DNA from: Thuidium tamariscinum
Taxonomy: Eukaryota > Streptophyta > Bryopsida > Hypnales > Thuidiaceae
Length of the DNA stretch: 64,000 nt
Assembly: GCA_947034885.2 (NCBI GenBank)
Contig: OX344750.2
Coordinates: 6,182,501-6,246,500 of the forward strand
Direction: 5' to 3'
Below the pieces are notes generated by a model, which saw only the letters and a program-made list of their open reading frames with translations, did no database searches and was not told where the DNA came from. Positions 216-45,375 of the stretch are shown here, in pieces. Numbering within the stretch: position 1 is the first letter of the stretch; each line of letters starts with the position of its first letter. The position numbers were made by a program, and so were the translations under genes.

Positions 216-223
216 TATATCAT

Positions 224-884: not shown

Positions 885-1117
885 ATTCAATAGATTGGAT
901 AGAGGAAAAAAAAAATTTCATTGTAAATGTAAATATCTCACAATTTATACCAAAGCTTATAAAATTTCTTCCAACATTCTCATGTAGTCATGCAAGATCC
1001 TAATCCTAATATCCTATGGCTAGATATGCAAATTAAAGAAACAAAGTATTTTGCTCAAGATTTGCAATTAAATTGATAGGTTTCGATTGATATTTGGTAT
1101 TCATAATACATAGTCAT
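885..1117. other. AT-rich spacer holding an empty site of the giant transposon
   Basis: The sequence ccaacattctcatgtagtca around 974-993 is the uninterrupted version of the site into which the 17.2-kb element at 15275-32500 inserted. The following gcaagatcctaatcc also matches the right flank of that element. No gene is visible. Confidence 0.7.
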
Positions 1118-10751: not shown

Positions 10752-10755
10752 TACT

Positions 10756-13772: not shown

Positions 13773-13930
13773 ATATCCAATGTCAAAGTCTTGCTATTAT
13801 AATGATGTGTAATATAGTATTTCAATGTCTTCCTTTGGGTGTTATAAACAACAATTAAGAATAATAGTTTCAATTGTTCAAGGCTTTCAAATGTGGCTTA
13901 TTAGTGTCTCTCCATATACATATATATATA

Positions 13931-14155
13931 TATACCCCCCTATGAAGATATGTTGTTTGTTTGTTTGTTACGTTGAGATCTCCCAGACCGTGAGTCCCCC
14001 GGGTGCGTGTTTGGTACCGTTGGAAAGCCCTCGGCAAGGAGGGGTGCATGGGCTTTGATTCATGGTGTTCCAACCTATGGCATGAACGTTATTGAATTTT
14101 GAAGTTTCTATACATTAAAAAAATTAGACCGTGGCAACGGCACGGGCCTCCCTAG
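13931..14155 (+). mobile_element. Short non-autonomous Helitron-like insertion
   Basis: The 3' end has the Helitron pattern: a small hairpin (CCGTG at 14129-14133 pairing with CACGG at 14141-14145) followed by CTAG at 14152-14155 and a flanking T. The second unit shows an empty site at about 44230-44245, where the TA run joins directly to ggggcaatatttacc. The 5' end falls in the TA run, so it is placed only approximately, and a canonical TC start is not clear. It is GC-richer than its surroundings and has no Rep/helicase coding. Confidence 0.65.
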
Positions 14156-14403
14156 TACATATATAGGGGCAATATTTACCAATTTTGATATATAACAGGG
14201 TTTTTTTTTTCAAAATTGTATTTCATTTGTGCTTATAAATATTTGTCATTTTAAGCTTTTTTTTCTTTTTGGAATTTGATCATCAAAAATCCTTAAAGGC
14301 AAAAATCTACCTTGAACTCTTTGTTAAGTGCAAAATAAAATTTTCAATATAAAAATTTGTAGTTTAAAATTACAAGTTTAAGGAATTCAACGTCTTATAT
14401 CAT

Positions 14404-15163
14404 GGATTCAGATTGTAAGAAACACTTGTCTTATTTGTGGCCCTTAGGTCTTATATTAGTGGGGTTTTGTTTGTAACTTTGGCATTTTATGTCAATTTTA
14501 CATAAATTTTAAAATGAGGGTATAAATGGTAGTTATACACATTGATTGTTTTTAAATTCATTTTTAATAAATTATTTTATTATTTTTTAATAGCTCCCAA
14601 TTGGATGTCTACCTTGATCATTTATGGAGGATGTAGACTTTCAATCTTTCAATACTATTTTGGACCTATAAATGTGAATTTGAAACACAAAATTACAAAA
14701 TAAAAACTTATCTCAAAGCTCCAAAAGCTTGCAAGGAGGGTTTCTAAAATCAATTAATAAACCATCCACCTTCTACATGTGCTCAAAATGCACTATGTTT
14801 GTGCAAGTGCATAAAATACAATTTTTTTCCCATATTAGATGAAAATGGTTGAGCTAGAGCAACCATCTTCAAGCTAGAAAAAAATAAATTTTTTATTGAT
14901 TTTTTTTGTATTCTTTACTATTTTCTAATCAATGCGTCTATTATTTTGGTATTTTCAATTGTGCTATTTTTGTTCATAACTTTTAGAGATAAATTTTCTT
15001 AAATTTGAATTTTTGAAGCCATACTCATTTCAATGCTTTGCAAAATATTCATATTTAATTTCATTTAAAAAAAATTATTCCAAAAGTCACAACACTCAAT
15101 AAAATTTCTAAAAATGGCTATTTTGAGTAGAAACCAACAAGTGTTTTTTTTGCTATGATTCAT
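14404..15163 (+). mobile_element. GGGTGATTGC-family element, diverged subgroup
   Basis: This is a close relative of 224-884 and 44513-45265 with the same internal order. Its termini are GGATTCAGATTGTAAGAAAC and aagtgttttttttgctatgat. It is non-coding. Confidence 0.65.
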
Positions 15164-15274
15164 GCTATAGATTGGATACAATGGATAGTAGAAAAAAAAG
15201 TTTCACTATAAATGTAAATATCTTTCAATTTACATGGTCAAAGCTTATAAAATTTCTTCCAACATTCTCATATA

Positions 15275-15300
15275 AGGCCATATTCGTTAAATTGAGAAAA
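15275..15300 (+). repeat. Left terminal inverted repeat of the giant transposon
   Basis: 26 bases match the reverse complement of 32475-32500 without a mismatch. Similarity stops sharply after this point. Confidence 0.9.
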
Positions 15301-15768
15301 AATGGTCATTTTGAGACCTTCAAGCCTCTTCGTTTCAAAGATAAGTTGTTGAAGCCAAAGATAAATATGGGAAGCCTATGTGTACAAAGCAATTATAAAT
15401 TACAAGTTACCTAGAAGGACAGAAGACAACAACAATAAAGAAATTAAGATTGTAGAACGGAATTGAAATTGAGAGAACAAAATGTATGTAACATTTATAG
15501 AAGGTCACTTTACATTGGATGGCATGAACTTCCTAGAGAACCCATGTACATATGAAAGTATATATCTCACATGTTTATGTACTTCACTTCTAGGGGAAGT
15601 GAAATCATGGTAAATGTAATGATTGATGGATGTATATTGTGTATGAATGTAGAGATTATGTGCTCATTCAGAAATGTAGTTTGCAAAAATGGAATTCCTT
15701 TGTGTATACGAATGTCTATTCTATTAATAGCAATGAATGCTTTGGGGTAGCAGACATAATTCTGTCTA
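15301..15768. other. Transposon left subterminal region
   Basis: AT-rich with no convincing gene. It probably holds the 3' untranslated region of the minus-strand gene at 15769-16698. An AAATTGAGAG word at about 15465 repeats part of the terminal repeat. Confidence 0.5.
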
Positions 15769-16698
15769 CTAACCATTGTTCTTAGTTGAAGAGCTACTGT
15801 TTGCGGCCTCCAAAGCTTTGAGCTTAGCCAAGCCTCTAAAGATATCTTCGCGGCGAGAGGGTCTTGGTTGTTTAGCTGCACTATGCACATGACCCCACAT
15901 CCCCATCTTCAACAGTTCGTCGGCCTCCTTTCGCCACTTGCGTTTGCTTCGCAGAAGTTCGTAGCTTGAAAGAGACCTAGAAATTCGAGCTGGAGGCCTT
16001 GACAGTGATGTATTGACAATATTTATGTACAGATCTGCTGCTGCAGTTGACCGTGCGTCGTTCGATCGATGATAGTCTCCAAGAACTGTTCCACGAGAAA
16101 GAGGTACAAGAGAAGATGCAGATTCACCTCTTTGACATTTCGAGGGCAAAGTTTTGGCAATGCCTTCAAGCTGCAAACGTTCACCTGCACTACATGTAGC
16201 AAATGCAACCTTCCTCCTTCGTCCACCTGCAATAGAATCCTCCCCGAGATCATTGTTGAGGCCAACAGCTACATCAGGTGTAGTAGCCAACGACACTACA
16301 TCCTCGCGTCGAGGATCCTCAGAATCTCCTTCCATGTCAACATACAACTTCCTGTGCACAGTCATCTCTGTACAAACAACCGGCGATTGCGATCGCAACC
16401 GACTAGGTGTGGAGGCCGTCCACTTGAAAGGGGATGGTGAACACACGGGAGTCATGACTAGACCCCTACTGGGCGGACTGTCTACTATACCTTCTTCTAC
16501 ATTCCCCTTAGAAAAGTCGATGGCCGCTGAAGCCGCATCCATGGCGGAGCACAATATGATTGGCTTCGAAAAGGCGGATGGGACACAACTCCCTTCATCA
16601 GATTCAGACCTCCTAGAGAGCGTCGCGTCCGATCCAGACATCAAACTCCTTGTAAGTGGCTGAGCTCGTCGAAGCAGGTGCATTACAGATCCATCAAC
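15769..16698 (-). CDS. Unrecognised Ser/Arg-rich protein, last exon
   Basis: An open frame of 309 codons plus stop begins at a good acceptor (cctttcttcag before 16698). The first internal Met candidate (MHLLRRAQPL) follows five codons later, so this may be the complete coding part or only the final exon. The product is rich in Ser, Arg and acidic residues and looks mostly disordered. A more ordered basic C-terminal stretch (SYELLRSKRKWRKEADELLK) lies about 80 residues before the end. I recognise no family. It lies just downstream of the FCP1-like gene on the same strand. Joining the two would break reading phase at the visible splice sites, so I keep it separate. One palindrome variant (16300-16316) is inside this coding sequence. 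Confidence 0.6.
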   Translation of the reverse strand, partial: VDGSVMHLLRRAQPLTRSLMSGSDATLSRRSESDEGSCVPSAFSKPIILCSAMDAASAAIDFSKGNVEEGIVDSPPSRGLVMTPVCSPSPFKWTASTPSRLRSQSPVVCTEMTVHRKLYVDMEGDSEDPRREDVVSLATTPDVAVGLNNDLGEDSIAGGRRRKVAFATCSAGERLQLEGIAKTLPSKCQRGESASSLVPLSRGTVLGDYHRSNDARSTAAADLYINIVNTSLSRPPARISRSLSSYELLRSKRKWRKEADELLKMGMWGHVHSAAKQPRPSRREDIFRGLAKLKALEAANSSSSTKNNG

Positions 16699-16751
16699 CT
16701 GAAGAAAGGATTTCAAAAAAGTCCCTCACATTATCTTCGACCCAAGGATAA
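16300..16751. repeat. Two variant 21-bp palindromes
   Basis: ATCCTCGCGTCGAGGAT at 16300-16316 lies inside the coding sequence for residues EDPRREDV. A degenerate copy at 16731-16751 (arms TTATCTTCGA and CCAAGGATAA) lies just upstream of that exon. Both belong to the transposon-wide palindrome set. Confidence 0.65.
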
Positions 16752-16911
16752 TTACGCAATTGAGTCTTACATCATATCACATAACAATGGGGGCACACAT
16801 TGACATAAAAAATAAGAACTTTATATATTATAAATGAATGACATTTACAGTTTTGTTCACATTCTTATCATGTACAATGATATTTACAACCAAGAGTTTG
16901 CAGAACAATGC

Positions 16912-17916
16912 CTATTTCCTACACGGCTCGAGCTTGATCACTAAATTCATTCCGGGGAGCACAAAACTAGTCCCAAAGTTTTTGGCTGACTCCCTAAATC
17001 CGTCCAAGAGTTCATGAACCCTGTAAGAGGTAGGCGTCACGGGGGATTGACCAATCCGGTTCAAGTCTACATATTCACGCAAGCGTCCTAGCTGGCAGTC
17101 CTCGTGGAGTCGCTTCAACCAAGGCGCAAGAGTTTCCATCAACTCTTTGTCTCCACGTTCATGACGATCCCACGTATCCAAGAAAATCCCGTTTCCGTTC
17201 TCATTGAGAACACTCTTTTGCGGGGAGTCATCAATCAGAATGGTATTATCCATGTTAAAGTGAACGGGATCGTCCGGACATGTGAACAAATGCTCGTTCA
17301 GGACTTTCAAACGCAAAGGCTTAAAAGGGTTCCCACCCTGCACAAGAAAATTTCCTAGAGAAATCTCAATTTTCTTGCAGTTCTCTTGTCCAAGAATGTC
17401 ATAGGGTTGTCTATTGTCTTGGCACAAGAAGGCGACGACGGTCTCTACTGTCATCTTGAGCATAGAGCTCCAGAAAACAACGCGGTTTGAGATCCGGTTC
17501 ACCTCTCTAAGAAATTCCCGCACATTGGGACGAACGAAGACCGCCTTCGACCCAATGAGCGTGGGTTGCCGATCCGAGAACACATTGTCCTCGGGTCGAT
17601 GCGTCTTCTTGCCCTTAAAAGAGGACCTACGCTCGCACTGACAGAGGACTCCATTGAGGTCGAATACAACGTTCAACCAATTCCTCCGCGGTTTGGAAAC
17701 TATCGGGGATACACTCCGCAGCACTCTCTCTCTGCGGCTCCCCGTCACTACCTGATCAAATCAAAAACACGAGAGAGATGGCGTTACCTGTTGAAACGCA
17801 GAACCAGGTGACTCATACAACGCCGAACCCCACTGACCCCCACTAAGCGATCGTAGAGTCCCTCCATTACAGGATAATTTGCGTGCCAATGGATGGTGCA
17901 CTCTAAGTCCTTTGTG
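16912..17916 (-). CDS. FCP1/NLI-interacting-factor type HAD phosphatase-like protein
   Basis: The main exon, 17751-16912, ends in TAG. A probable upstream exon 17916-17788 follows a CAG acceptor, but the 36-bp gap between the two is very short for a plant intron, so the 5' structure is uncertain and no ATG is fixed. The protein shows FCP1-homology signatures: FDLNGVLC (HAD motif I, with the second catalytic Asp replaced by Asn), FVRPNVREFLREVNR, VVFWSSM (motif II region) and ILIDDSPQKSVLNENGNGIF (motif III/IV region). Family members dephosphorylate proteins such as the RNA polymerase II C-terminal domain. The DxN form of motif I would lower or change that activity. It lies inside the transposon as cargo or as an accessory function. 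Confidence 0.7.
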
Positions 17917-18246
17917 CTGGACAAAACATAGACAAAAAATCCATTATACACAATTTTAAATAAAATGCGTACATGATTATTTATTTCCAAGTAATTTATC
18001 ATACATTTGGTAGATTTTTTTGTTGATCTCCATTGGTTCTATACATCTACCAAGACTCTTTTGTCTAAAATCTCATCTATGCTACAAATGGACGATTTAG
18101 GTTGGGAGGTCTGTCGAAGCCACCCACTCACTGACTCTCCAATCCCTCCTGTCAACAAGACGAAATGGTATAAGAGTCTCTTACTACAATGACAAAAGTG
18201 GGATGGAAGGCATAACGAACATCCATCGGAAAGACTTTAGACAGAC
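17917..18246. other. Spacer between two minus-strand transposon genes
   Basis: About 330 bases of moderately AT-rich DNA. It should contain the promoter and 5' exon of the FCP1-like gene and the 3' end of the ParB/methyltransferase-like gene. No palindrome copy or clear TATA box stands out. Confidence 0.4.
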
Positions 18247-21200
18247 TCAAGAAAATTCATAGGGGTCAGATTTTTGAGGAGAAGATACCTGTCCAAATGC
18301 CAGATGCTCGTCGCCGTCTTCATAGCCCTCCCCGTAATCTAGTTGTTCATCATCGTCGTCAAGGGGATTCTGTGACTCAATCGTGAAGGTCGGAACTGGC
18401 GATGACCTCAATGGAGGGACTGGCTCCTCCTGGACCTGATCACCTCCTTTAGATTCAGGGGTCGCATCCGGGTCCACTTCATCCTCAGTCTGAGTCATGG
18501 GATTATCCTCGACTCGAGGATAATCGATCCCTCTGATAACATTGTCCGTTCCAATTGCAGGAGGCTGCATCTTCGTTGTCAGATGAGGCTGAGGATCGTG
18601 GAGAGGTAGAAAGAGGTCCTACGATTCAGACATACATGGACGAACACATTCTCGGATTAGGGGAGAATTATCTTCGCCTCGAAGATAAGTAGGATTGCCA
18701 AGAATTGAAGGCCGTTGTTCAAAGGCATCAGATGAGCATCCGGCTTCGTTGATATCACAATGTACCTGTTGTGATGCCAACGGAATTGCAAGAGCTCCCT
18801 GTTGAGAAAGCTTTTCCTTTAGAATTCGGTTTTCCTCCAGAAGAGCTTCTCTCTCCAGTCTTGCTTGCTCTAACTTCTGAGCGTCTTCTGCTTTCTTCTT
18901 GGCCTTCCGTTCGTCCCGTTCCTTCCAGAAGTCTCGGTTTTCCTTTTTCACTACTACAACTCCCGTAGCAGTCGCGCCTGGAGCACACCCTGCCTCGCTC
19001 TCAATCTGAGGATCGCATTCATTGAGGGGCTTCATTTTGCTCACAGCATCTGACTTCGGTGCGTCACCAAGATCTGCGCCAAATTCAAATCCCTCCAAGT
19101 CTGAATAGGAGTCGCCGTCACTCAGGTCAATGACTTCTTTCCCTGATCTTCTTTCATCCTTTTCAGCTTCTCGGGGCTCCTCTTTCTCCTGCTCCTCATT
19201 TTCTTCCTCCTCATCGGCGGTGTTTTTTGCCTCCATGCCTTGTTCCATTTCTGCATCTGACACTTCATCAGCGATTGCGGTAGATGCAGCATGGTGAACC
19301 TGAACCTGGAAATCCTCCACTGATATCTGAAGATCTCCACTCTGCACAACGTCTCTATTTGTGCCAAACTCGTCAACCCCTAAATTTCCTTGTGGTTGAC
19401 AATTTTCAGCCTCTTTGGTTTCCTTTGGTGTACTCTTCTAATGCGCTTCCGATGGGGAAGAGTTAGAATCAAGTTCTGGTGTACCCAACCGAAGGGGACG
19501 GATATAATTCGCCTGGTACGGCGAATTATCATGCTGGAAGTCGCTGATGTCTGCTCGATCACCATGCTTGACAACTTTCATCAGCATCTCCTTTTTGTGC
19601 CGGTCTTCTACGGCATAGCAGAACATGCCACACAACTGCAAGCGAACGATTCTAATTTAGAAAAACCGAGCAAACAGAATAACACATTGTAGAAATTTTA
19701 CAAAAATAGGAATGACATACATTGACATGTGGTTGATCAAAATGATGCACTATGAATACAACGACAATCTCAAATCCAATGAAAGGAATTATCTTCGAGT
19801 CGAAGATAAATAGAAAGAAGTTGAATGGCAGACTTTAGCAGCCAGGAGAAATTTGGATCCTGCGTACACGCTGAGGACATTCTCTCCTTTCAACCCGAGA
19901 TTCTGGAGGAGGTCGATGTAGAACTCCATCCGTAGTTCGCTCGGATAAACCCTCAGCTTCGCCTCAGTATTGAATCGAATACCAGTGTAGAAAGTGTTTT
20001 CCGTGGTATCGTACACTTTCTTCACTGTCCCGAGCTCTCTTGGTACGCCAGCATCGTCCTTCGAGATGAGGAAAATCAAAGTCACTGGGGCTGGTGCGGT
20101 TCGGCTGACGTTGCTTATTTTCTCGACTTTACATGGAATGTAGGTCGAGAGCCTTATCACATAGTTCTTGAGATGCCTCTCTGCAAAGGATGTAGCTTCC
20201 TTTGTCTCATATGAATTCCCGGGAATCCATAGCCAGACCTCTAGCCCCGTCAAAGTTGGCCTCATGTGGTTAGAGAGGAATCTCAACAAAGGCAACAATG
20301 GGCTAGGATTACTGGAACCAACGTCTGGCTTGGGAAGGTTTCGGAAGTCGATGATCCCCAGAGGAAGACCTCTTAATTGGTAAGGCCAGGTGTGACTCAT
20401 CACAAAAGCCTGGGGATAACACTCGTGCCCTCGAATGTACGCTTCACCATCCGACTGCTCAACCTCTTTCTTCATGTTCAAGAACCTTTTCAGTAGTGGA
20501 TAGACTGTGCGGAGAGGAGTGTCTTTGTAGTCGACAGCTCTCTTTTTCTTCCCTTCGTTTGTAAGGCGCTTTACAAAGAAGTTACTTGGGATCCCGTTTA
20601 GAAGAAAGTCCCACGTTGCCGCCGTGAAGAGGTTCTTGATTTTCCAAGCCCTCCAGACCAAGTCCTTCACGTCTCCATTCTTGTCCTTGAAGTTCAGGGA
20701 CGAGTCAATAGCCATGAACTCCTCGACAATCACTTTCTTCCGCTTGCGCCGCTCTACCCAATCCAAGTGCACCATGTTATCTTCGCAAAGGAACTTAGTC
20801 TTCTTAATCGAGACTTTTGGATACTCTCGATTGCGCCCGGGAGTTCGTCCAAGCAAATGAAGGACATATTCGTGCAGATCTTTATCTGTGAAATGCCCCA
20901 TGTGCTTAAAGAACTCTCGCTTCACTTCATGGGATTGAAGACTAAATGTCTTTGCACTACGATAAGGTTTGCGCGTGCAAGGGTCAATCAATGACCCCTC
21001 CATCTGTTTCTTTAGGAAGTCCTCCCAAAGCTTATAAATATTGTCCGGAAGTGTAATGATTCGGAGTTCGTTCTTGACGTTAGACTCCTTCTTGACGTTG
21101 CTGCCATCCTTATCCGGGTTGATGCTCTGATATCGAAGCAGGACAGCGTCCACGAATTTCTGGAGCAATTACCAAAACAGTCTTAGTGCTTCTCATTAAC

Positions 21201-22767
21201 TAGTGAGACGAGAAGAAAAACTTATGCTATCCTCGAGTCGAAGATGAAAATATAGAAACATTTATCGATACTAGAGGGATGATAAAACAACTTGTGTTAT
21301 CTTCGAGTCGAAGATAAAAGTATGAACAAACTTACCGCGTACGTGGTTGCGTTGAATGTGGATCTGTTGCCTCGCTTCTCTGGTTCGGATTCTATGGCAG
21401 TTGGTCGCTTTGCTGCTCCCCAGATCTGTCTGCAAGAGAAGATCTGGTTCCCCCAGGTTGGCTGACTATGTCGGAGATGGTTCGTCTTGTTATACCAACT
21501 GGATATCTCCGTGAGTTTTTCGGCGTTCAAGGTCCACACAATTGTCGCTTCCCATGTTTGCAACTCCTTTTTTCGTTCCTCACAGACCCCGCCTTGTTGG
21601 AGTTGCTTGGACGCGGTTACACTGTGTTGCCCATTGATGATATAAAAATTCCCATTCTTGATTTCGTCCCAACTTTTGGGACATTCTCTAAGAAGGGCTT
21701 TGTTCTGATCCATTGGTGTGAGGCAAATCGTCTGACGCTGTTTCGCGTCCCCGAGATTAATCAGCTGCTCCCGGACATCGTCAACAATAGTTTTCTCCAA
21801 CTTCCTGATCACATATTTCGGCCTTGCAAGGAAGCATTGGTCGATGGAGACCTCGAACGTCTGCGGCTCAAAAATGAAGCATTCCTTACATTTTTCCCAG
21901 AAACTCTTCTGGTAAATGCCTGCAACCTCAAACTTCTTGATGGGCTCAGCGTCTTTAGTACTCCCCATCAGTACAGTTGTCAAAGCAGAACCAGAGCTAC
22001 CAGCTACTGTTTCTCGCCCTGCCACGCTTGGTTTAGGGCGCTTTGCACTCATCTCCCCGGGTCCAGGTGCTGTGGGTTTCCTCTTCTGAGGTTCAGCGCG
22101 ACCTCGTCCCCTTCCACTACCACGACTGCCTGACGTCCCTCGTCCTGCTGATGGAGTCTGAGTTGGTTGTTGGGACTCCTTCCTCTTCTTAGTCTGTGCA
22201 CGGGAGGAAGTGGGTTGTTTCTCAACGCTTGAGAGTGCATGCTTCTCTAGTCTTCGGAATAGAAGGTTCATGTGCCTCGCCATAGACACAGCGTCATTTT
22301 GTACCCATGGGTGGAATTTCCCGCTCAGCTCATCTCCTAGAGCGTTGTGGCTTCCTTCTTGCAGCGACTTGATGAGCTCGTCGAAGTTGAAGACTGCTCT
22401 TTCATCCTCATCATAGAGGACGATTGAGTGCGTGTGGCTCAGCTCGTCGCCATGGTTGTTGATGGCTTGGAGTGTGACGACAATGAAATGTTTCTGATGT
22501 TCCTCTATCAGAGACACTTTCTCATTGAGATTCCAGGTCACATACAGACCAGAACCTTTCACTTTGTAGCGAAGGTGGACGTAATCCTTAAATCTATTGA
22601 CTCCGAATGTCCAGGAATCAACTACGGACTTAAACTGCCATAGTTCTCCATAGAGGTCTTCCATTTCTGTGATGAAGGATCCATCACCAATCCACATGTT
22701 GAATGGCTCAAGGAAGGGGAGAGTAGCTGAGTAGTCGTACCCGTCGTTGCCCACCATCTTGGACAGT
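18247..22767 (-). CDS. ParB-like/methyltransferase-like fusion with acidic coiled-coil tail
   Basis: Predicted exons in phase: 22767-21336 (GTAAGT donor), 21159-19834, and 19635-18247. The earliest clear Met is at 22757. Counting from it, residues 1-190 are an unrecognised domain. Residues 190-240 are a basic RG-rich linker with nuclear-signal-like KKRK. Residues 315-430 resemble the ParB/sulfiredoxin fold, with FYIINGQHSVTAS in place of the usual G-x-HR-x-A motif. Residues 700-930 resemble an N4/N6 DNA methyltransferase: SHTWPY sits where DPPY is expected, and ENVLSVYAGSKFLLAAK spliced to LCGMFCYAVEDR matches the glycine-motif end. The tail is acidic and coiled-coil. Two TAG codons at 19438-19440 and 18619-18621 interrupt one otherwise open frame, so the tail may be lost, spliced around or decayed. 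A nuclear DNA-binding role is inferred, and catalytic activity is doubtful because both key motifs are altered. Confidence 0.6.
18502..18688. repeat. Two 21-bp palindromes embedded in coding sequence
   Basis: Copies at 18502-18524 (ATTATCCTCGA core) and 18668-18688 lie in the tail frame of the ParB/methyltransferase-like gene, where they encode DYPRVEDNP and TYLRGEDNS. A related but distinct inverted repeat is at 19504-19529 (ATAATTCGCC arms), encoding DNSPYQANY. Confidence 0.75.
19789..19809. repeat. 21-bp palindrome in an intron
   Basis: A perfect copy (arms TTATCTTCGA and TCGAAGATAA) in the intron between exons 21159-19834 and 19635-18247. Confidence 0.9.
21228..21317. repeat. Two 21-bp palindromes in one intron
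   Basis: An imperfect copy at 21228-21246 and a perfect one at 21297-21317, both inside the intron 21160-21335. The intron is under 180 bases, so palindromes make up about a quarter of it. Confidence 0.9.
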
Positions 22768-22813
22768 CTGTACAGTAATCCAGAAGCTCATGATCATCAA
22801 TACTCATAGAAAC

Positions 22814-23228
22814 TTATCTTCGACTCGAGGATAATTTTCTCTACTCAATTTATCATGAGGAGCTACACTACAATGAAGGAAATTTAGATGATCTATCGTT
22901 TTACATTTTTCCAGTCATGAATGGTTTCATATTTCTTTACTTCTGTTCTTGAATGGAAATACTTGAAAGCATACACGCTCTAGAAACTACAGACGTCTCC
23001 GGAATTTGTATCGTAATGTTACATTATCTTCGAGCCGAAGATGATTCTATAGTAGAAGGAAGTTGTGTTATATATTTGTGCTTGTATTCTTTGTAGGAAT
23101 ATCTGGTTGGCGTTATAATTAATTTGCTTTAGTAAGCGAGGTTTGCTTTCTGGTAACTGAGATTTAGATTCTTTGCCTTAAGTGCAAAACGGTCTATCGA
23201 CTTGTGGTTATCTTCGATTCGAAGATAA
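22814..23228. repeat. Three 21-bp palindromes upstream of the ParB-like exon
   Basis: Copies at 22814-22834, 23024-23044 and 23208-23228 are spaced about 200 bases apart. They lie in the presumed long intron between 23591 and 22767. The last is perfect and extends to 23 bases (GTTATC...GATAAC). Confidence 0.9.
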
Positions 23229-23364
23229 CTTTAAGGTGGAGGGTTAGTTGTTTTCCGTTCTGAGGAATTCTCGAGTGTACTGGTCATACTCATGGGAGCT
23301 ATGATTAATGTTAGGCAAGGTTATCAAGAATAAGGTTTATTAGAGCTGCATTTGGGCAGCTGGA

Positions 23365-23424
23365 ATGCTACTTTTATCTTCGCGTCGAAGATAAATATCT
23401 TCGACGCGAAGATAAAAGTAGCAT
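23365..23424. repeat. Dimer of palindromes forming a 60-bp perfect cruciform
   Basis: Two palindrome units (23374-23394 and 23395-23415) are arranged so that the whole 60 bases form 29-base inverted arms (23365-23393 and 23396-23424) separated by two A residues. No mismatches are seen in the arms. Confidence 0.92.
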
Positions 23425-23590
23425 GCAATAAGCAAAGTTCTGAGGGACTTGAACTACTTTTTCTGTAGGCTGAATCGTATTCAACAGTTGCACTGGTACT
23501 AAACCCTAATCCAGTGTGTTACTGTTGCTTTTCTGTGCATTTTTGTGTGTTCTGAGAAGTTAGAAATAAAATGAAGTGGAATGAACTTAC

Positions 23591-23949
23591 CTGCCAATTT
23601 CCTGCTTATGAGTTATCTGGTTTTGAGTTTGATGTGGAAGGCACTCTTGAACTTCAAGCTCTCTGGCGCCTGCATTACACACTGCAACTATGAGTACTTC
23701 TGTGTGAAGAATGTGACCACACTCGTGGAGTTCACGGAGGCCAACAGAGCAAAAAAACAACAGACCAATACCACAACTGAATCAAAGACAGTGTGCACTT
23801 CAGTATCACAGTAATCTCTGGAAGAAGACCGTCTGATGATCGTCCTTCCAGAATCCCTAAAACCCTAAACCCTAAGGTGCAGCATTACCCAAATTAGAAA
23901 TTAAAAACGAAAAGAATGCATTGAACGCAAGGAGGGGCTAGGGTTTACC
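23591..23949 (-). CDS. Candidate upstream exons of the ParB/methyltransferase-like gene
   Basis: Two open pieces on the minus strand fit in phase with the main gene. One ends at a GTAAAC donor at 23949 and reads LRTVEQAADLCRRFAFE. The other, 23721-23591, ends at a GTAAGT donor and reads CGHILHTEVLIVAVCNAGAR and onward to QEIG. Joining the second to exon 22767 gives QEIGRLSKMVGNDGYDYS. No ATG is visible in the first piece, whose frame is open only from 24026, so the true start is unknown. If these are untranslated, the protein begins at 22757. Confidence 0.4.
23858..23875. promoter_or_regulatory. Telo-box-like repeat
   Basis: aaaaccctaaaccctaa resembles the plant telo-box, which is common near transcription starts of plant genes. 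It lies in the putative first intron of the ParB-like gene. It is too short to be telomeric DNA. Confidence 0.4.
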
Positions 23950-24420
23950 TCAAAAGCAAAGCGCCTACAAAGATCTGCCGCTTGCTCAACAGTACGAAGC
24001 GTGAACCAAATGAAGACGATGACACTTCACAAGACAGAAAGTGCGCTCCAACCACGCGCTCCAACCAAGCGCTCCAACCAAACTCGAGAAATGACAAAAG
24101 TGGAGAAATGTGCGCAAAGGCCCAGATCAAAAACACCAGCGCGCCGGCAAATTTGTGTGCACAGCACTCACGCAATGCCGCACCCACCTCCGCCTCAAAA
24201 GATGAAACACAAACTTCACTAACAGAAGTGAAACAGAAGAGAACAAAACACAAACACGCGAAGCAGCACAAACACGCACAAGCGGCAATCACAATTCAGA
24301 GAAAATGGGAGCCACGACGATGTCGTGGTAAACCCTCGCGGCCACCGAAGGAGAACTTCGCGGGACCCTATAACCGCGGGAGTGGAGAGTCGGTACCCGT
24401 GCCCGAGACCTATAGCTGTA
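23950..24420 (-). promoter_or_regulatory. GC-rich island, likely 5' region of the minus-strand gene
   Basis: Base composition rises sharply here against AT-rich DNA on both sides. Open frames occur on both strands (for example plus 23982-24425), but their residue patterns look like compositional by-products. The position just upstream of the first candidate exon suggests a promoter/leader. No TATA box is clear. Confidence 0.4.
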
Positions 24421-27191
24421 TGTGATGGTGTTCTCAAAACAAGTTCAAGGTTTTTAGCCAAATGTTCATTTTTGGAAGATTTTTTCTGAATTTACAGTGA
24501 GGACATGAAGAAATTATGTAGCAATTGAGCGAAATTTAGCCAATTTTGGGATCACTGGTGTGTACCCCTTAATGGGTGTAGGGTTAAACCTAGAAAGTGT
24601 TTATCAAAAAATCACCATTTAACCCTTCAACGATTATGGGGTCACGAAGAAAACCATCTTTTATGCAACCATGGGAATCATTGGACATGTGAAATTCAAA
24701 AGTGCGCATTTGAAGTCAAGTATTTGTAGAAGATCTTTATTTTTTAATTGTATCTCTGTGGATGAGTGCCTGTAGTTTGCTCCTGCACTGCAGAATGTAC
24801 TCTCATTCTTTGACCATAGAACACCTTTGATGTTGTTTACGGTTTAGGGCATTCAGCCACTTCTAAAGATTAAAAGGCTTTTGCTGGCTACATTTCACTT
24901 TGGTTTTAAAGAAGGGATCAAATTACATTTCGTATCTTTCTTTGAAAATAACTTTATTCAATGACTATTCATTAAGGGAAAAAAATTATCTTCTTTCTTA
25001 GATCTTCTTGATGTCTTCCAACTATCTAGATAATTTTTATACTCTAATTGTTTTTTTATAATTTGAAGTTTAGTTGTACTAATATTGGGCCATATATAGT
25101 TCTTGCATTGCAATTCCCTTAGCTCAATGAAGAAGGGTTGGTGACCTTATAAATCCTACACATGAAATACCTGTGACATCATCTAATTATATCTAATAAA
25201 ACTAATATTCTTTTAAGATGAATATGTACCTTTGCTTCTGAAAGTAGACAATTCATTATAATTAAGTCTTTCATTTTATTTTATTTAAAAAAAAATTAAA
25301 GTACTTGCTGCCTTTATAAAGTTTTAGAAAGGTGCTCCTTTATATTAAAGCTATTTTTTTTAATTAATTGAATTTAAACTTCATACTGATTAGATGCAAT
25401 TTTGCAAAAAAAGAAAATCCTAATTCTTTTGTTTAAAGGCAATTGTTTGGAAAGAGAATGATTCTAACAATTTTGTACCAAAGAAGGTATTCCACATAAT
25501 TATATAGTGACAAACTAAGAAGTAAAAATTGTGCCTGGGCTTAGGGTGGCAATTGTAAATACTTTGTTTGAATGCACAATTTGACCTTTGATTATATTCA
25601 AACGGTTATTCACTTATTGTCCTTGTTAGCTTGTAGATATCTTATTGTTGTTGTTTTTTTTCATCAAAAAAGAAACATTTAATAAAGGCTATTAGTAATT
25701 TTCTTCTTCATATCATTTGTTCTTTGAGTATTTCCAAACTTATTGAGGTTTTTTTTGTCTTTGTTTTAGGGTACACTATAATCTTGTACTTTGTATGTTT
25801 TTGGGACTCTAAACAAATAGAAGCTATTGGGATTTGACTTTCTTTGCAAATGATTAGTATTAATGATACCACCGTAAACATGAACTACAAAATAATGTAG
25901 GAACTATAACAATTTAGAAGAAATAAAAATTCATACTTTTAGAAACTAAATTTGCAGGTATTCTTTAGGTTCAATCTCAAACATTTTACTTTCAATTACT
26001 CTTGACTGATGTTATTTAACAATGTAAGTTTTTAATATAAACTTCAATACTTATATGCAACAGTAGAAGAAAAGGTACATTTGGCTTGTAAAGATCGTTT
26101 TTACGAAATCATTGCTTATATTAAAGAGATATTTATTTTTGACATGTATGTAAATTTCACACTATAAAATATCTTCTCGCCACACAAGGGGTAATTATGA
26201 AATATAGTGAGGGATATATACCTTTGCTTGGAAAAAATAGTCTGTGAGCTGTACTTAGGACTTTCTATTGTAATACTTGTGATTTATTTTTGAACTATTC
26301 ATGTCTAAAGGATCAATTCATTTACAACCAATACAAGTTGTTTGAGTTCAGAAGGAGGCTTCTAGGAATTGTAAGGTCCCTCATGAATTCCTTGAGATTT
26401 AGGAATTTGAATTAGGGAATGATGTTATATTATTTTCTATTTAAAATTTTCAGCTAATCCTATACATTAAAAAAAATTAAGTGCATATTAATTTTATAAT
26501 TGGCATTGTGTACCTAAAGATTTATTTTTGAACTCCTAGGTGATTTTAGTGAACAACGTTGTAATTACAGAATACAAAGAGGACAAGTGGCCATCTTTAA
26601 TGAGGTCATTTAATGATTCAAAAGATATTATGTAACTACCATTTGTAAGCAATGTGTTTTTATTGGTGGCCAAGTATTTTACATGTTTAGGGTGGATTTT
26701 TTCTCCGTATGAACTTGGAAGGTAATGCTTCCTGCACATTTTTTTTTGAATCCCACCTATTTTCTTCTAACGTTTAGAGATTATAGTAAACGTCATCTTC
26801 TGCATCCTTTTTTTGGTAAAGTTAATTGATTCTATATATATTTCTTGGTTTAGGCCACCTAGTGTTAGGATTAGGGTTTAGGCAATAAATGGATAGCGAA
26901 ATTCTTGAAGTACTAATGTAATGTAGATCCTAAATTTGAAATGTAAGCCTCGAACCTTAAATTTGTAACTCCAAAACTATATTCTATACTTTATACGTGG
27001 AATTAAAAAAATCTTCCATATTAAATTTCTAGTAAAATAATTACATACATTTTGTTCAAAATTTGCATTGCCACATGCATTATCCCTTGTCCACATTTTG
27101 TTTTCAGAATGAGTGGTTTTGAAGAAAAAGAGAAAACGTCAAATTTAGAGATAACTATATGATGTGATGAATTCCAATTGTGGAAGAGCAT
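24421..27191. other. AT-rich central non-coding stretch of the transposon
   Basis: No gene is supported over about 2.8 kb. Near 24520-24560, the phrase gcgaaatttagccaatttt matches the right end of the hAT-like element at 47455-47825, so a relic of that family probably sits at about 24430-24560. No palindrome copies were seen in this stretch, in contrast to both sides. Confidence 0.5.
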
Positions 27192-27195
27192 TTAA

Positions 27196-27466
27196 GGTAG
27201 GTACACCCAAAAGCGCCACTTATTCATACTGAGCCTACTTCCTGCTATTAATTAGTTCAAATTTTTATGTAGTCTTGTTGGCAAGTGAAAGCATGTTCCA
27301 ACGCACCAAAGAACGCAGGATTTGGATACCGTATGCAAAAGTTATTAATAGTCAAAGTCTGTTTCTAAAAGCGCCATCTACAGTTTGGATACATGACTGA
27401 TTTTGGAAATGTATGTGCACTGTAGATGGCGCTTTTAGGAACAGGGCGCTTTTGGGTGTACCCACC
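27196..27466. mobile_element. TTAA-flanked miniature element with nested inverted repeat
   Basis: The 22-base inverted ends begin GGTAGGTACACCCAAAAGCG and are flanked by TTAA at 27192-27195 and 27467-27470, a duplication typical of piggyBac-like elements. A second, inner inverted repeat (AAAAGCGCCATCTACAGT at 27367-27384, inverted at 27419-27436) reuses the AAAAGCGCC word. It is non-coding and inserted inside the giant transposon. Confidence 0.75.
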
Positions 27467-27689
27467 TTAACAGTAAATTCCGTGGCCCGGAAGAAATGAT
27501 GGCTATCAGAGAAGCCTTCAAGTGAAATTCCCCTATTTATATGCTAAAGTGATCGACAAATTCTAAGATTCCAGTTCAATTAATATAAAGTTGTTGAGTA
27601 GGTTTCGTCAGCACCTTATAAAGGAGGGTAAGAATGTCAACTCCCCTTGAACCCCGCAGGTGCTTCTCCCCTGAGTCCGGGAAAACTTG

Positions 27690-27900
27690 AAAGTTTGAAA
27701 TCTCACTACCTTTGCCGCTCGTTTCATCCCGCCACTTCATTTGCATCGTCTCTCTCCCAGTGAGCACCACTCTTTCATTTCTTCCTCCGCTCGCCGCCTT
27801 CCTCTATCTTCATTCCGCCGCTGCCTTGCAACATTGCATCGCTTTCTTCTAGTTGACAGCTGCATTAGCGTGTCCACAGGTCTATTGTGCTTGGGTTCTT
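27690..27900 (+). other. Candidate 5' untranslated exon of the DUF7869 gene
   Basis: A GC-richer, pyrimidine-rich stretch typical of a plant leader precedes a GTAAGT donor at 27901. The matching acceptor (cttgcgcag) lies at 29052, one base before the ATG. If correct, the leader intron is about 1.15 kb and contains five palindromes. Confidence 0.45.
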
Positions 27901-28246
27901 GTAAGTTGAAGTACCTGATGTTAACTTTGTTGTAGTTTGTGATTCATATTTCATGTCCTGTCTGAATTCCAATGCATAAGCTTTGGCTATGTCGTAGTAG
28001 AGATGCATCCACAGTTGTGTTTGGTCACAGTTTCGATGAGTATGTCTTCTTTATCAATGTTTTAGTTTGTGCAATTATGTACTTCCCTTCAATTTTGATG
28101 TTTCAGTCAGTGTAATAGTCTTCTTCTACGGTATGCTGTACACATTGCGATTAGTGGAGCGCGAATTTTGCGCCGTAAAATTCGGAGCGGAGCCTTCTGT
28201 ACGCTGATTTCCGCGAAGAATAAAGAATTTGGGGTCACCCTGTACA

Positions 28247-29014
28247 TTATCTTCGAGTCGAAGATAATATTTTCAGTATTCTGTATTCGAGCATAATCAT
28301 GGTCAATAAGGGTGTTTTCTCGAACTTACAGATAATAACTAACATCCAAGATTTCGAGCCGATTAAATACATGGCAATTTTATATGGAGACCTTGGGTCT
28401 CAAAATAAGAATTATCTTCGATTCGAAGATAATTATACAACTTAATGTTCCATATGGAATAAGAATATAATGGGCAAGGTCATTCACAGATGTTTCTAAT
28501 AGATTTCAAAATTCTAACGCCTTCGAGAGTATTTGTTCTCAAATTACAGATATTACCGAACAAATAAATGTTGCCTTAAGTAATATGAAGCATAATTTTT
28601 CTCTTGAGATTTATTTTGGAGTATTATCTTCGACTCGAAGATATATCAACCATTCCAATTGTTGAAGTGATGAAGTGTCCGTAGGGTAGATTCGTTCGGA
28701 GTTATAACTAACCATTATAAAGAACTTACGCAGTCGTGATTAGAATTATTGGGTCCAGTAGAGATCCACATTTTATATTATCTTCGAATCGCAGATAAAT
28801 GTGAAGGTGAAAAATAGGCTCTTAATGAACGGAAAAACACAATAGAAGCTGATGTGTAGGTCCTATACGGATTGTTGTAATGTCAGGTACTCTGTTTTAT
28901 CTATTTTCTCATGAATAGGGATAATTCTTTCTATTCATTAATTTTGATCATGATATGTCATTGGCCCTGCTTGTGAGTGATGTTTAGAATACTTTATCTT
29001 CGAATTGAAGATAT
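28247..29014. repeat. Five 21-bp palindromes before the DUF7869 gene
   Basis: Copies lie at 28247-28267 (perfect), 28412-28432 (perfect, extended by AA/TT), 28624-28644, 28778-28798 (one arm mismatch) and 28994-29014. Spacing is about 150-220 bases, similar to the set at 22814-23228. The last is only 40 bases from the ATG. Confidence 0.92.
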
Positions 29015-29053
29015 CCTTTTCTGTATAAGTAATAAGGTTTCATCTTGCGCAGA

Positions 29054-31900
29054 ATGGAGACTTCAAGTGCGAATGAGTTTGCAGTTCCGCTGCTAGCCTT
29101 ACCAGATGGTGTAGCTGCCTGCGAGGGTATCCCTCGATCTTCTTGGGTTACAAAAGGGGTAACCCTTACAAACGAAGCTGGGGTGGAGGTTGCAAGAGCG
29201 ATTTGCCACAGCGTTGATGCCAACCTTGTCATCGACATGTATGGAAATCCTCTCGGAGACGATCATGTTGCAGTTCAGATTGCACAGTCATTGAGTGAAC
29301 ATGACGTTCCATTCTCTTGGATGTGGTCAATGCGGTCTTGGCACATTTCAAGGGTCTTCCTCAGAGGTGCAAGCCTATTCGATCACGATCAAACTCATAT
29401 ATTCAAGACTGCTGTAAGTGCATCTACACGTCGTGCTCGAACAGGTGTTCGTTCCTATGAAAGTTCGCATGAGAAGAAGGAGCCGGAAAATCTTCCCAAA
29501 AAAGAATCCCTTCTTATAACGCGAGCCATTACCGAGGTTTCGACGATGCTGTGCTGTCGACAGAATTGTTTGCAACCATTTCCTCGGGGGGAGATTCAAG
29601 CCATACGTTCTCAGCTTTACGTTCATGGTGGTGTGTACAATCGTCAATCATGTTTGCTTGGTGTACACAAGCAAGTTCATCATGACTCAAATGGAAGAGA
29701 GATGATCACTTTGGCATCTCGAGAAGTTTGTCCTACTGCTTGGTGCATCATTCATGGAGTTCACAAATCTACCTTCTATAGGTATAGACAGCAAGCAAGA
29801 AGTGATAAACAACCAGGGCATCATGGCAATCTTGGTTTGAAGAAGCCTAGGACGCATACACTACAGGCCACTGCTACCCTTCGACTCGTTCTTGATAGGA
29901 GCGCTGACCAAATGCCACACAAATCAAGGACTCTCCAATCAGGAGAGAAAGTTCCTTCAATGGTTCTTCCTTCAGCTTTCCGCTGGAGTGAAACATTGCC
30001 CGAGATTAATAGCGTGAATTCATCATTCCAATTGCAGCATGTTTCAACAAGTGGATTGAGCAACATCCGTCGCATTTCATTTCCAGAATATGCTCCGAAG
30101 GCTCGTGGTGACAGTTTTGCTCGTTGTGGGCAATGTGACAGATTGAAGCAACTAAGGAACACTTGTACTCCACGGTCTCATGCTCAAGAAGTGTGGACTA
30201 AAAAATTGAAAGTGCACCTTGCAGGGCAGCAAGCGCATCGAGAGTTGTATTATGCAAACCGCATGATGTCTGAGAGAAGTCCAGAGAAGATGTTGACTAT
30301 AATCCACGACAAAATGGATCATTCTAAAACGGCTTCTCCACATTACTCTCACAAGAACAAAGGGACTGATTCTTTTATGAAGATGCCAGTTGCAGTTACG
30401 GGCATGATTGCTCATGGACATGGAGATGTTCAATATGCACACTATGGGTTGGATATCTTCCCCACAGATTCTAATCATACAGTTGGATCCATTGCAAAGT
30501 TGTTACGTGATTTAGAGTCTGAGCCTAAAGTCTCATCGCGGAAGTTGTTTGTGAAGGATGATCCTATTCATCCTTTATCTCTAGCTATTCTAGAAGGCTC
30601 AGAGATGTATGAAGATTCCCTTGCTCCTCCTCCTCAAGAGGTTATTCAACCTCAATGTCTTCCTCCAGTATTGACTCTCCAACTTGACAATGCCTCAGGG
30701 GACAACAAAAAGCGTTGGGTTTTCGCATTTTGTTCTCTTCTTGTTCATAGAGCTATATTTCGCGAAATATACATCAATTTCCTTATTGTTGGACATACTC
30801 ATGAAGATATTGATGCTCTTTTTGGTCGATGGAGTACCAAATTAAAGACTAATGACTACCCTACAATTCCAAGGTTGATGAAGTCCTTCATGGATTGCGA
30901 AACACAACCTGTGATTCCACATTTCATTGAAGAGGTTCCCGATTTCAAAGGGTTTGTAGAAGGGTACTTGCATACAGGTGATGATTCACTACAGGGGCAT
31001 TCTCAAGCTCAACAATTCAAATTTTATAAGGACTCTAACGGATGGCCGTTGATGCAATATAAAATTCTTTGTACTGATAGTGATTGGTTGCCAAGGGAAG
31101 GTGGAGGGATTCGTTTGTGGAAGGAGACAGCAGATGGTCACCCTAAAGTTCCTAGAGGTAGTCCTCAGCCTTTGGCTCCGCACGTTATGCGTTGCTTTGA
31201 TGAGGTTTCGAAGGGTTTAGATGGCTACATTGATTTGTGGGGTGCAATGGCCAATCAAGACTTGTCAGGAGAATTTCGGAGAAAGATTGAGCCAGTGAAG
31301 AAGTATTGGGAAGGTGTGGCAAATGCATTGCTTGAACCACTTGTGAGACGTGAGACCTTGCGAGATGGATTTTGGCCAAATTCAATCATCTCCACTGAGG
31401 AAGTGGATCAATACCACGATGACGGTACAGTGCGTGAAGAATTTGCAGAAGATGCACCCTTTGTTGGTCATAGACGTGATCATCCACTTCCTTCATTTCG
31501 TGTTGGTCGTGATGTTTATGCAGAATATTTTGTTGCTGTACGTCCTGCTGATGGTGATCTTCGTCCATTTTGGCTTGCACGGGCATTGACAAACCCTAAT
31601 CCAGATCCTGTGCATGTCAATTTCATTCAACTCCAATATTGGACACCTACATCTTTTCAACACATTGATGAGGGCACCTACAATGGCTGGGATACAAAAC
31701 AAGGGAATTCTTGGTGCGAAGATAAAGCTATATCTTCAAGTTGGGCACACACAGATTGCATCATGACTGGTTGGAAGCCACGTGTGAGAGCAGGGACTTC
31801 AGATCCAAGGATCAAAATTCCCAAAACCCAAATTGATATCATCAAGGCATCAGTGCATGCTTACATGCTCAATGAAGGCAACAATGGATCATCGGCGTGA
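29054..31900 (+). CDS. DUF7869-domain protein, candidate transposase
   Basis: A single exon of 948 residues; the ATG directly follows an AG acceptor. Visible features in order: a Cys cluster CCRQNC (167-172); a helix-turn-helix-like segment REVCPTAWCIIHGVHKSTFY (224-243); CGQC with a further Cys (358-371); then the DUF7869 core, with IIHDKMDHSKT (D419, D422), LTLQLDNASGDNKKR (D545) and VGHTHEDIDALF (E584, D585, D587). The order and spacing of acidic residues fit an RNase-H-like DDE nuclease. That is my inference, as the family is formally of unknown function. It is the only long intact gene in the element and the natural candidate for mobilising it. A proline/acidic C-terminal region (780-948) has no recognised motif. 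A partial palindrome-like sequence (gcgaagataaagctatatcttc) lies in its 3' part near 31717. Confidence 0.8.
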   Translation: METSSANEFAVPLLALPDGVAACEGIPRSSWVTKGVTLTNEAGVEVARAICHSVDANLVIDMYGNPLGDDHVAVQIAQSLSEHDVPFSWMWSMRSWHISRVFLRGASLFDHDQTHIFKTAVSASTRRARTGVRSYESSHEKKEPENLPKKESLLITRAITEVSTMLCCRQNCLQPFPRGEIQAIRSQLYVHGGVYNRQSCLLGVHKQVHHDSNGREMITLASREVCPTAWCIIHGVHKSTFYRYRQQARSDKQPGHHGNLGLKKPRTHTLQATATLRLVLDRSADQMPHKSRTLQSGEKVPSMVLPSAFRWSETLPEINSVNSSFQLQHVSTSGLSNIRRISFPEYAPKARGDSFARCGQCDRLKQLRNTCTPRSHAQEVWTKKLKVHLAGQQAHRELYYANRMMSERSPEKMLTIIHDKMDHSKTASPHYSHKNKGTDSFMKMPVAVTGMIAHGHGDVQYAHYGLDIFPTDSNHTVGSIAKLLRDLESEPKVSSRKLFVKDDPIHPLSLAILEGSEMYEDSLAPPPQEVIQPQCLPPVLTLQLDNASGDNKKRWVFAFCSLLVHRAIFREIYINFLIVGHTHEDIDALFGRWSTKLKTNDYPTIPRLMKSFMDCETQPVIPHFIEEVPDFKGFVEGYLHTGDDSLQGHSQAQQFKFYKDSNGWPLMQYKILCTDSDWLPREGGGIRLWKETADGHPKVPRGSPQPLAPHVMRCFDEVSKGLDGYIDLWGAMANQDLSGEFRRKIEPVKKYWEGVANALLEPLVRRETLRDGFWPNSIISTEEVDQYHDDGTVREEFAEDAPFVGHRRDHPLPSFRVGRDVYAEYFVAVRPADGDLRPFWLARALTNPNPDPVHVNFIQLQYWTPTSFQHIDEGTYNGWDTKQGNSWCEDKAISSSWAHTDCIMTGWKPRVRAGTSDPRIKIPKTQIDIIKASVHAYMLNEGNNGSSA

Positions 31901-32474
31901 AGATTTTTAGTTTAGAGATATAGAAGTCGAATAGCTATTATCAGCAGATTGTAGTTGGTTTTAAATATATTAAAAAAAGTAACCAAAAAAAAAGTTTGCT
32001 AATAGTTTTATAAGTTCAAATGCTATTTTCTATATTGTCTTTGGAAATAATAGAAAAAAACTATTAAAAATAAATAAGTAGGAAAAAATACTTAGAATTT
32101 GTTTGCAAATTTATTTTTGGATTATTGTATTGACCACATTTTTGAAATCAAATGTCATGGATGTTGTTCATTTTAATACATTTGTATTGTTATTGTCTAT
32201 GGTACATTGAGCATTTTCTAGATTCTTTGTTATATTTTCATTATTTTAATATTTTGTATTTAAGATTGAATATTATTGTATATTTTACAATATTGAATTC
32301 TAAATTTCCTACTTCTACTCGATATTGAATGTATCTTCTAATCCAATTCATTTCTTCCTTTCATTATTTTTTGATGAATTTGGCATGTTTTTGTCTCAAT
32401 TTAATAAATTGTCTCAAATTAATGACTACTTCTTCTTTCTAAATTTAGGATCATGATTAAAATGAGACCCCACA
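31901..32474. other. Transposon right subterminal region
   Basis: AT-rich, no gene. It probably contains the 3' untranslated region of the DUF7869 gene. TCTCAATTT and TCTCAAATT words at about 32394 and 32411 repeat part of the terminal inverted repeat. Confidence 0.5.
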
Positions 32475-32500
32475 TTTTCTCAATTTAACGAATATGGCCT
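32475..32500 (-). repeat. Right terminal inverted repeat of the giant transposon
   Basis: The exact reverse complement of 15275-15300, followed by the TATA duplication at 32501-32504. Confidence 0.9.
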
Positions 32501-32754
32501 TATATAGCCATGTAAGATCCTAATCCTAATTTATCCTATGGATAGGTACGCAAATTAAAGAAACAAAGTATTTTGTTCTTTGCTATAGAATTGATAGGTT
32601 TAGATTCATATTGAATTATTGATTTGGTAAAAAACATAATCATAGACCTTCTAGAGTTTCAAGTTATAAAATCTAGAAGGTAGAAAACAATTTACAAGTT
32701 TGCAATACAAAAAGTGAGTATGCAATCATCAAGGCATTTTTTTTTCATTTTTTA

Positions 32755-45265: not shown

Positions 45266-45371
45266 GCTATAGATTGGATACATTGGATAGTAGAAAAAAA
45301 GTTTCACTATAAATATAAATATCTTGCAATTTACATGGTTAAAGCTTATAAAATTTCTTCCAACATTCTCA

Positions 45372-45375
45372 TATA
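45372..45375. other. Empty target site of the giant transposon
   Basis: ctcatatagtcatgcaagatcc is uninterrupted here. The TATA is the single copy of the site duplicated on both sides of the element at 15275-32500. Confidence 0.85.

Follow-up and report, generated by a model that had tools for sequence, protein, structure and literature searches.

The stretch of DNA analysed here (the window: 64,000 nucleotides of the moss Thuidium tamariscinum, C2:6182501-6246500 in a genome of 363 Mb and 19 contigs, places in which are cited below by contig C-number) contains a 17,228-bp DNA transposon at 15274..32501, a member of a mobile multicopy family. It is best read as a giant Sola-type element, with a likely transposase gene of the DUF7869 type on one strand, a conserved accessory cassette on the other and many sites of a 19-bp palindrome, TATCnTCGAnTCGAnGATA, which seems confined to copies of the element. 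Our preferred reading, to which we assign a probability of roughly 0.55 from sequence comparison, is that the product of the large accessory gene (gene 1) may bind these palindromes and so control the transcription or chromatin of its own element.

The element ends in perfect inverted repeats of 27 bp (AAGGCCATATTCGTTAAATTGAGAAAA, with no mismatch between the two ends), the left one at 15274..15300 on the + strand and the right one at 32475..32501 on the - strand, as judged from a repeat search and from comparison of copies. The latter also gives the target site duplication, ATAT, at 15270..15273 and 32502..32505. The original prediction had described a 17.2-kb element with perfect 26-bp repeats and a TATA duplication. 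Its size holds after refinement of the boundaries and the repeats are indeed perfect, but the copies compared shift each end one base outward, giving 27 bp and ATAT. At up to three mismatches the 27-bp end matches the whole window twice, at the two termini of the element; 100 shuffles gave no match. The uninterrupted homologous sites that had been noted near 45372 and 981 were recovered as well: the flanks align without the insert at about 45371..45374, where the element-free join reads CTCATATAGTC, and at about 982..985 (ATGT), where it reads CTCATGTAGTC. These empty sites are not alleles but tandem paralogues that have diverged from the flank, with BLAST identities of about 80-92%.

Is this a lone insertion or one of a family? 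A search with the 26-bp end gave 428 genome matches at up to three mismatches and none with the reversed pattern. Among the 100 of these ends whose positions were listed there are at least 18 facing pairs spaced 15-23 kb, the window pair included. Eleven complete copies with near-perfect ends were examined, namely the window copy and 10 of the other 17 listed pairs. All 11 are bounded by identical 4-bp flanks whose sequence differs between copies (ATAT in the window copy; TATA, CAAT, ATAT, ATAT, AGTG, TCTT, CATA, TTTT, CTTG and GTTA in the others), and their sizes are 17.2-18.9 kb; in a deep-clade copy of 18,851 bp TGTC was read at both ends. TATA as a fixed target was rejected because the duplications vary in this way. 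Over 17,247 aligned columns the window copy and that at C8:15.30 Mb show 98.4% identity; the latter lies in a different target, CATA, which indicates fairly recent movement. There is also a miniature element of 254 bp (L029:1273-1526) with the same kind of ends, an AAAT duplication and one palindrome-like site inside. The family is a cut-and-paste DNA transposon, with inverted ends and duplications at independent insertions.

The check that the original prediction had proposed, a search with the 26-bp end, thus brought up many matching termini with 4-bp duplications and the same set of open reading frames (ORFs). An assembly artefact or a single-copy insertion was rejected in view of the 428 ends and the duplications at differing targets in 11 of 11 copies, and an assembly join is excluded by those independent duplications together with the 98.4% identical copy elsewhere. 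It is likewise barely conceivable that, instead of a transposon carrying a gene set of its own, the insert represents captured or segmentally inserted DNA, an endogenous virus or an assembly join. Its size and gene number are admittedly unusual among plant cut-and-paste elements, but the 4-bp duplications of all the complete copies, a cassette conserved across clades and the lack of any Pfam capsid or polymerase match in the scanned ORFs all speak against this, and the independent insertions refute it.

The layout of the element is simple. A single-ORF gene on the + strand lies near the right end, and the - strand carries six ORFs: O496, O459, O272, O123, an FCP1/NIF-like ORF and O318. These six appear to make up about two multi-exon genes, so that the claim of four or more genes was about right if the transposase gene is added. 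The same ORFs occur in the same order and orientation in all 11 complete copies. In the deep-clade copy at C3:27.61 Mb the DUF7869 protein is 62% identical to that of the window and five of the six accessory ORFs follow in the same order at 28-48% identity; O318 is 37.5% identical, O272 has a short match (E 0.002), and O123 went undetected in the stretch compared, which excludes the left end. Three other copies, also diverged, are incomplete in the stretches examined: at C4:0.63 Mb there are O496 and part of O459, the copy being split by a retrotransposon (judged from a visible reverse transcriptase-integrase ORF), and at C5:27.99 Mb two DUF7869 genes, O459 and O496. In the third, at C6:10.24 Mb, the cargo in the stretch examined is limited to one marginal O496 match (E 0.005). 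Across the genome, an upstream O496 in the opposite orientation, no more than 25 kb away, accompanies 37 of 48 scored DUF7869 places, a NIF gene within 30 kb accompanies 38 of the 48, and both accompany 35; in addition, NIF is found within 12 kb downstream at 70 of 86 O496 places. The lists make all these counts lower bounds.

The ORFs are under purifying selection. The median pairwise ratio of nonsynonymous to synonymous substitution (dN/dS; 55 pairs per ORF, with synonymous-saturated pairs, many of them in O459, O496 and O272, left out of the medians) is 0.09 for DUF7869, 0.18 for NIF, 0.28 for O318, 0.29 for O459, 0.30 for O496, 0.36 for O123 and 0.53 for O272. An overlapping ORF on the antisense strand, taken as the control, has a median of 1.01 and contains stops in 9 of the 10 other copies. 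Maxima for single pairs range from 0.84 (DUF7869) to 1.47 (O318 and O123), and stops are present in many copies, that of the window among them. The opposite-strand block is a conserved accessory cassette and not random cargo; captured host DNA was rejected as its origin because the cassette is shared and under purifying selection. That said, its parts do not all have the same history. Between the window copy and that at C8:6.91 Mb the synonymous distance is 0.25-0.31 for NIF, O318 and DUF7869, 0.57-0.70 for O272 and O123, and 0.85-1.02 for O496 and O459. Such unequal distances within one pair of copies suggest module exchange or recombination between element lineages.

The + strand gene (29054..31900) is a single open ORF for a protein of 948 aa and is, as had been claimed, a DUF7869 gene (Pfam PF25273, E 2.5e-46). 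Residues D419 and D422 (in IIxDxMD), D545 and E584-D585 (in VGHTHEDI) are invariant across 13 aligned cores, nine from this family and four from other DUF7869 proteins of the same genome that are 28-30% identical to the window's. The spacing between the candidate catalytic residues in the window protein is about 125 and about 38 residues, a layout of the DDD/E transposase type. Judged by these residues the DUF7869 protein is likely a DDD/E transposase, with D419 (or D422), D545 and E584/D585 as its candidate catalytic residues. A Pfam domain of unknown function would thus gain a well supported candidate role; DUF7869 was not found mentioned by name in the literature searched, whose scope took in few subscription papers. 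The Pfam model scored at 150 of 854 candidate places in the genome and gave matches in none of 14 control genomes.

Outside the genome, no DUF7869 relatives were found in viral contigs by alignment search. An 8.5-kb contig filed under two different bacterial metagenome-assembled genomes (L043/L044) encodes a 1036-aa DUF7869 protein (Pfam E 4.9e-21; 21% identity) whose N-terminus looks OTU-like by eye; it is possibly a misbinned eukaryotic contig. Within the genome there is a second, more typical DUF7869 family (L037-L040), 28-30% identical over the core. A subfamily whose DUF7869 ORF reaches 974 aa occurs at C4:2.00-2.02, C2:19.29-19.35, C11:2.94-2.96 and C11:14.05-14.07 Mb, among others. Several of its places have equal profile scores and open ORFs, and the ends read in one copy give the duplication TGTC; this may be a recently active lineage. 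At C5:27.99 Mb (L035-L036) an element end follows each of the two DUF7869 genes, which points to a nested or tandem insertion. Contig C11 (17.5 Mb, 4.8% of the genome) holds 16 of the 48 DUF7869, 31 of the 86 O496 and 57 of the 138 NIF places, and could be a sex chromosome or one rich in heterochromatin.

Gene 1 is opposite in strand to the transposase gene in all 11 complete copies, that of the window among them, and in the deep-clade copy. Exon 1 is O496 (21297..22787, - strand), with a motif NGQHSVTAS near the C-terminus of the encoded protein that resembles ParB, no more than a resemblance being claimed. It is followed by a GT..AG intron and by exon 2, O459 (19789..21168, - strand), which looks methyltransferase-like by eye. 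Exon 3 (18247..19437, - strand) encodes an acidic, low-complexity region; in the window it consists of O272 and O123, which are one continuous ORF in several other copies. Inspection of two copies by eye gave GT..AG introns. In the window copy exon 3 is broken by a stop codon (18619-18621). The original prediction had suggested an autonomous system. The family does look autonomous, but the window copy may not be fully so, given this premature stop in the third exon of its big accessory gene.

Further along the same strand, the predicted FCP1-like gene is confirmed by a NIF domain match (16912..17760, - strand; Pfam PF03031, E 4.1e-17). The catalytic motif of FCP1/NIF phosphatases is DxDx(T/V). 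In 12 of 12 aligned copies the first Asp is kept and the second Asp of DxD is replaced by Asn (FDLN), so the catalytic motif is not intact in any of the 12. O318 (15769..16725, - strand) encodes a protein of unknown family and is possibly a further exon after the NIF exon.

The palindrome was recognised in a repeat search of the element and contains two TCGA tetranucleotides. At up to three mismatches from TATCTTCGANTCGAAGATA the window has 16 sites, all of them within the element, against a shuffle expectation of 0.03. By motif search, five lie upstream of the transposase gene (28248, 28413, 28625, 28779 and 28995; 28248..29013) and five upstream of gene 1 (22815, 23025, 23209, 23375 and 23396; 22815..23414). 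Two more lie in the O496/O459 intron (21228 and 21298; 21228..21316) and one in the intron between O459 and exon 3 (19790..19808), the introns being placed by reading the sequence. Exon 3 itself has two (18504 and 18669; 18504..18687), and one with three mismatches is found between the NIF and O318 ORFs (16732..16750). Each of the 15 copies checked, of which 11 are complete and 4 partial, carries 12-32 sites at up to four mismatches. The genome has 671 sites at up to one mismatch, with none for the reversed pattern, and 376 exact sites of a C/G variant, with none for its control. Genomic placement was judged from 100 exact sites, the 50 that came first in the list for either of two variants, nearly all of which are on C1 and C2. 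Sites within 10 kb of an O496, NIF or DUF7869 place were 50 of 50 and 45 of 50, and the remaining five were within 17 kb; 0.8% of C1 and C2 lies that near such a place. The palindrome therefore seems confined to element copies.

Where in the element does it sit? Mapping with the core at up to two mismatches gave 245 sites in 12 copies (11 complete and one without its left end). Of these, 160 lie just upstream of the two divergent genes, 86 of them in the 1.4 kb before the transposase gene and 74 in the 1.2 kb before gene 1. A further 53 map to exon 3 or its surroundings, 18 to the O496/O459 junction and 7 to the NIF/O318 junction. The last seven fall inside O496 or O459 matches; in the window copy and its nearest relative they lie at ORF ends reading into introns. 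The coding sequences of the transposase, NIF and O318, the middle of the element and its termini contain none of the 245. When the window copy was compared with the deep clade, every match with E<0.05 in the regions upstream of the two divergent genes contained the palindrome, and the best match in the middle region was a CCCTAAA-type repeat.

The same map bears on the identity of the binder. The palindromes could be binding sites of the transposase itself, as transposition enhancers or autoregulatory operators; clusters do lie upstream of its gene in 12 of 12 mapped copies, and sites persist at C6:10.24 Mb. However, none of the 245 sites is near the ends, where most transposases bind, which makes transposase cutting sites of them improbable, and they are about equally numerous upstream of gene 1 and occur in its introns besides. 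We think this alternative unlikely. Quite unlikely, in our view, is service to a host factor, or a role as RNA or DNA hairpins in transcription or small RNA formation, with no element-encoded binder. A location in introns and upstream regions would suit such a role, and inverted repeats can fold. Yet a general host-factor site would not be expected to fall within 17 kb of element genes in 100 of 100 sampled cases, and across the 291 sites compared the core is for the most part nearly invariant, with variation at positions 5 and 15, and not merely complementary.

We return to gene 1. It is the strongest candidate for the binder, since a Sola1 protein of ParB/methyltransferase-like type has been proposed, in the passages available of its description, to bind its own transposon (PMC12477816). 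In the reading that we prefer, the DUF7869 transposase would act on the 27-bp ends and insert the element through a 4-bp staggered cut. An accessory product, most likely that of gene 1 (O496, O459 and exon 3), would bind the palindrome in upstream regions and introns, and this binding would switch the transcription or chromatin state of the element in a sequence-specific way, much as the VANC protein of the Arabidopsis VANDAL transposons does. The FCP1/NIF-like protein may aid a transcription step. The effect might be activation or anti-silencing, autoregulation, or marking of the DNA.

Marking deserves a word of its own, as the gene 1 protein might bind the palindromes and methylate element DNA, or once have done so, and thereby protect it. 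A 21.5-kb Sola1 element has the corresponding domain pair on the opposite strand (PMC12477816, in the passages available), and the two TCGA tetranucleotides of the palindrome would fit. O459, however, has no match to a methyltransferase profile, its DPPY-type motif is replaced by IIDFR, VLDVR or LVDFR in the aligned copies, and the GxG of motif I reads GSK or GAK. Both motifs were placed by eye. We hold self-marking to be doubtful, and prefer binding and regulation to enzymatic marking because the domains are unconfirmed by profiles and the catalytic motifs look degenerate. A bolder form of the regulatory reading can be offered only tentatively: this transposon lineage would have a partition-like recognition system of its own, in which a ParB-like protein encoded by the element loads on parS-like palindromes in promoters and introns, a dozen to about thirty per copy, and with an FCP1-like, probably non-catalytic partner licenses the transcription of every copy in trans but does not affect host genes. 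Were this so, the system would parallel VANC by convergence and would have been kept through a clade with 38% difference between transposases, and it may extend to the algal giants.

Several results count against regulation by gene 1 or against its parts. The ParB/methyltransferase label, which comes from motif resemblance and a published Sola1 parallel, is unconfirmed by profiles. The Pfam model ParB_N (PF02195) had no genome match at E<=10 and matched 11 of 14 control genomes; N6_N4_Mtase (PF01555) had 43 weak genome matches, none above the cut-off and none of the 43 within 5 kb of an O496 place. O459 has no Pfam match above the cut-off, and PF01555 is absent from the five members of alignment A3. 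PDB profile searches gave nothing relevant, nor did hhalign against SopB, and a search with O496 brought up nothing in viral contigs or phages. A PHROG ParB-like match to O496 is weak and was obtained for two of six relatives (best E 0.022). The cargo had originally been called ParB/methyltransferase-like, and profiles do not confirm this name. The presumed catalytic motifs of both the methyltransferase-like and the phosphatase-like protein look degenerate. Structures predicted for the full transposase and for its core are poor (mean pLDDT, the per-residue confidence score, 33.6 and 46.8), and a PDB fold search gave no significant match and thus no support for an RNase H fold. At a threshold of four mismatches O318, DUF7869 and the vicinity of the left end do contain a few weak palindrome matches. 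Half-site symmetry is mixed, since complementarity is 0.574 for positions 5/15, against 0.401 if they were independent, and 0.574 against 0.626 for positions 9/11. The copy at C6:10.24 Mb, with no cargo found in the stretch examined, keeps its palindromes upstream of the transposase gene, from which it follows that gene 1 need not be present in cis for the sites to be there. Finally, the assignment to Sola rests on published descriptions and not on the transposase sequence.

The flanks of the element (window 1-15270 and 32506-64000) are diverged duplications bearing BURP-domain genes, as would be expected in a land plant. Profile matches place two of these in the right flank, at 37710-38570 and 53776-54669 (E 2.6e-44 and 1.9e-45).

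How does the element compare with known systems? KDZ, EnSpm, Maverick/Polinton and Starship elements are very large and often multi-gene; the transposases or recombinases that they use and the target duplications that they make are different ones, and the scanned ORFs gave no Pfam match to the hallmark genes of any of them. Giant KDZ and EnSpm elements are named in the available part of PMC12477816. Sola elements, in the parts of their descriptions at hand, have terminal inverted repeats, a DDD-type transposase and 4-bp duplications (AT-rich in Sola2), are mostly 2-9 kb long with examples above 15 kb, and have been reported in the moss Physcomitrella (PMC10741241, PMC3627910). The present element shares with them the inverted repeats, a duplication of 4 bp, a length of more than 15 kb and a moss host (PMC10741241); it also has a multi-ORF cassette and palindromes, of which these passages (PMC10741241, PMC3627910) make no mention. 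The original prediction had recognised no named superfamily. This was too strong in view of the Sola-like duplication, size and occurrence in moss, and the opposite-strand accessory gene too is matched in Sola (PMC10741241, PMC12477816, as far as the passages go).

The closest published parallel is Sola1-1_Ec32 of the brown alga Ectocarpus, described in the available passages as a 21.5-kb Sola1 element with a ParB-like and DNA methyltransferase gene on the opposite strand, whose product has been suggested to bind the transposon that encodes it and to modify it (PMC12477816). Giant size and a large accessory gene opposite to the transposase are common to the two elements. That of the window has in addition an FCP1/NIF-like gene and O318, as well as the palindromes, of which those passages make no mention, and its ParB and methyltransferase domains are without profile support. 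A giant Sola with an opposite-strand gene was thus already known, and what is new here is the element-linked palindrome and the cassette with its NIF-like gene, a combination not found in the literature searched (titles, abstract openings and passages, with few subscription papers and without the palindrome as a search term). If our reading is right, it would suggest a function for the ParB/methyltransferase-like genes of giant algal transposons.

For the palindromes the nearest likeness is with the VANDALs, which belong to the Mutator superfamily. In these Arabidopsis elements, according to the available passages, a short motif is repeated in front of the transposase gene and within introns; the element's own VANC protein recognises it and removes silencing (PMC5735166, PMC10398659). 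Common to both systems, as far as those passages go, are a multi-gene DNA transposon, a motif upstream of the transposase gene and in introns, and variable peptide repeats in the binder (here a candidate binder); the motif of the present element differs in being a 19-bp palindrome, and the likeness comes from the placement of the sites and not from protein comparison. To our knowledge, sequence-specific escape of transposons from silencing is understood in molecular detail mainly from the Arabidopsis VANDALs. The moss element, with its clear palindromic target, its many diverse copies and its conserved cassette, would be a second such system, and one testable in another plant lineage.

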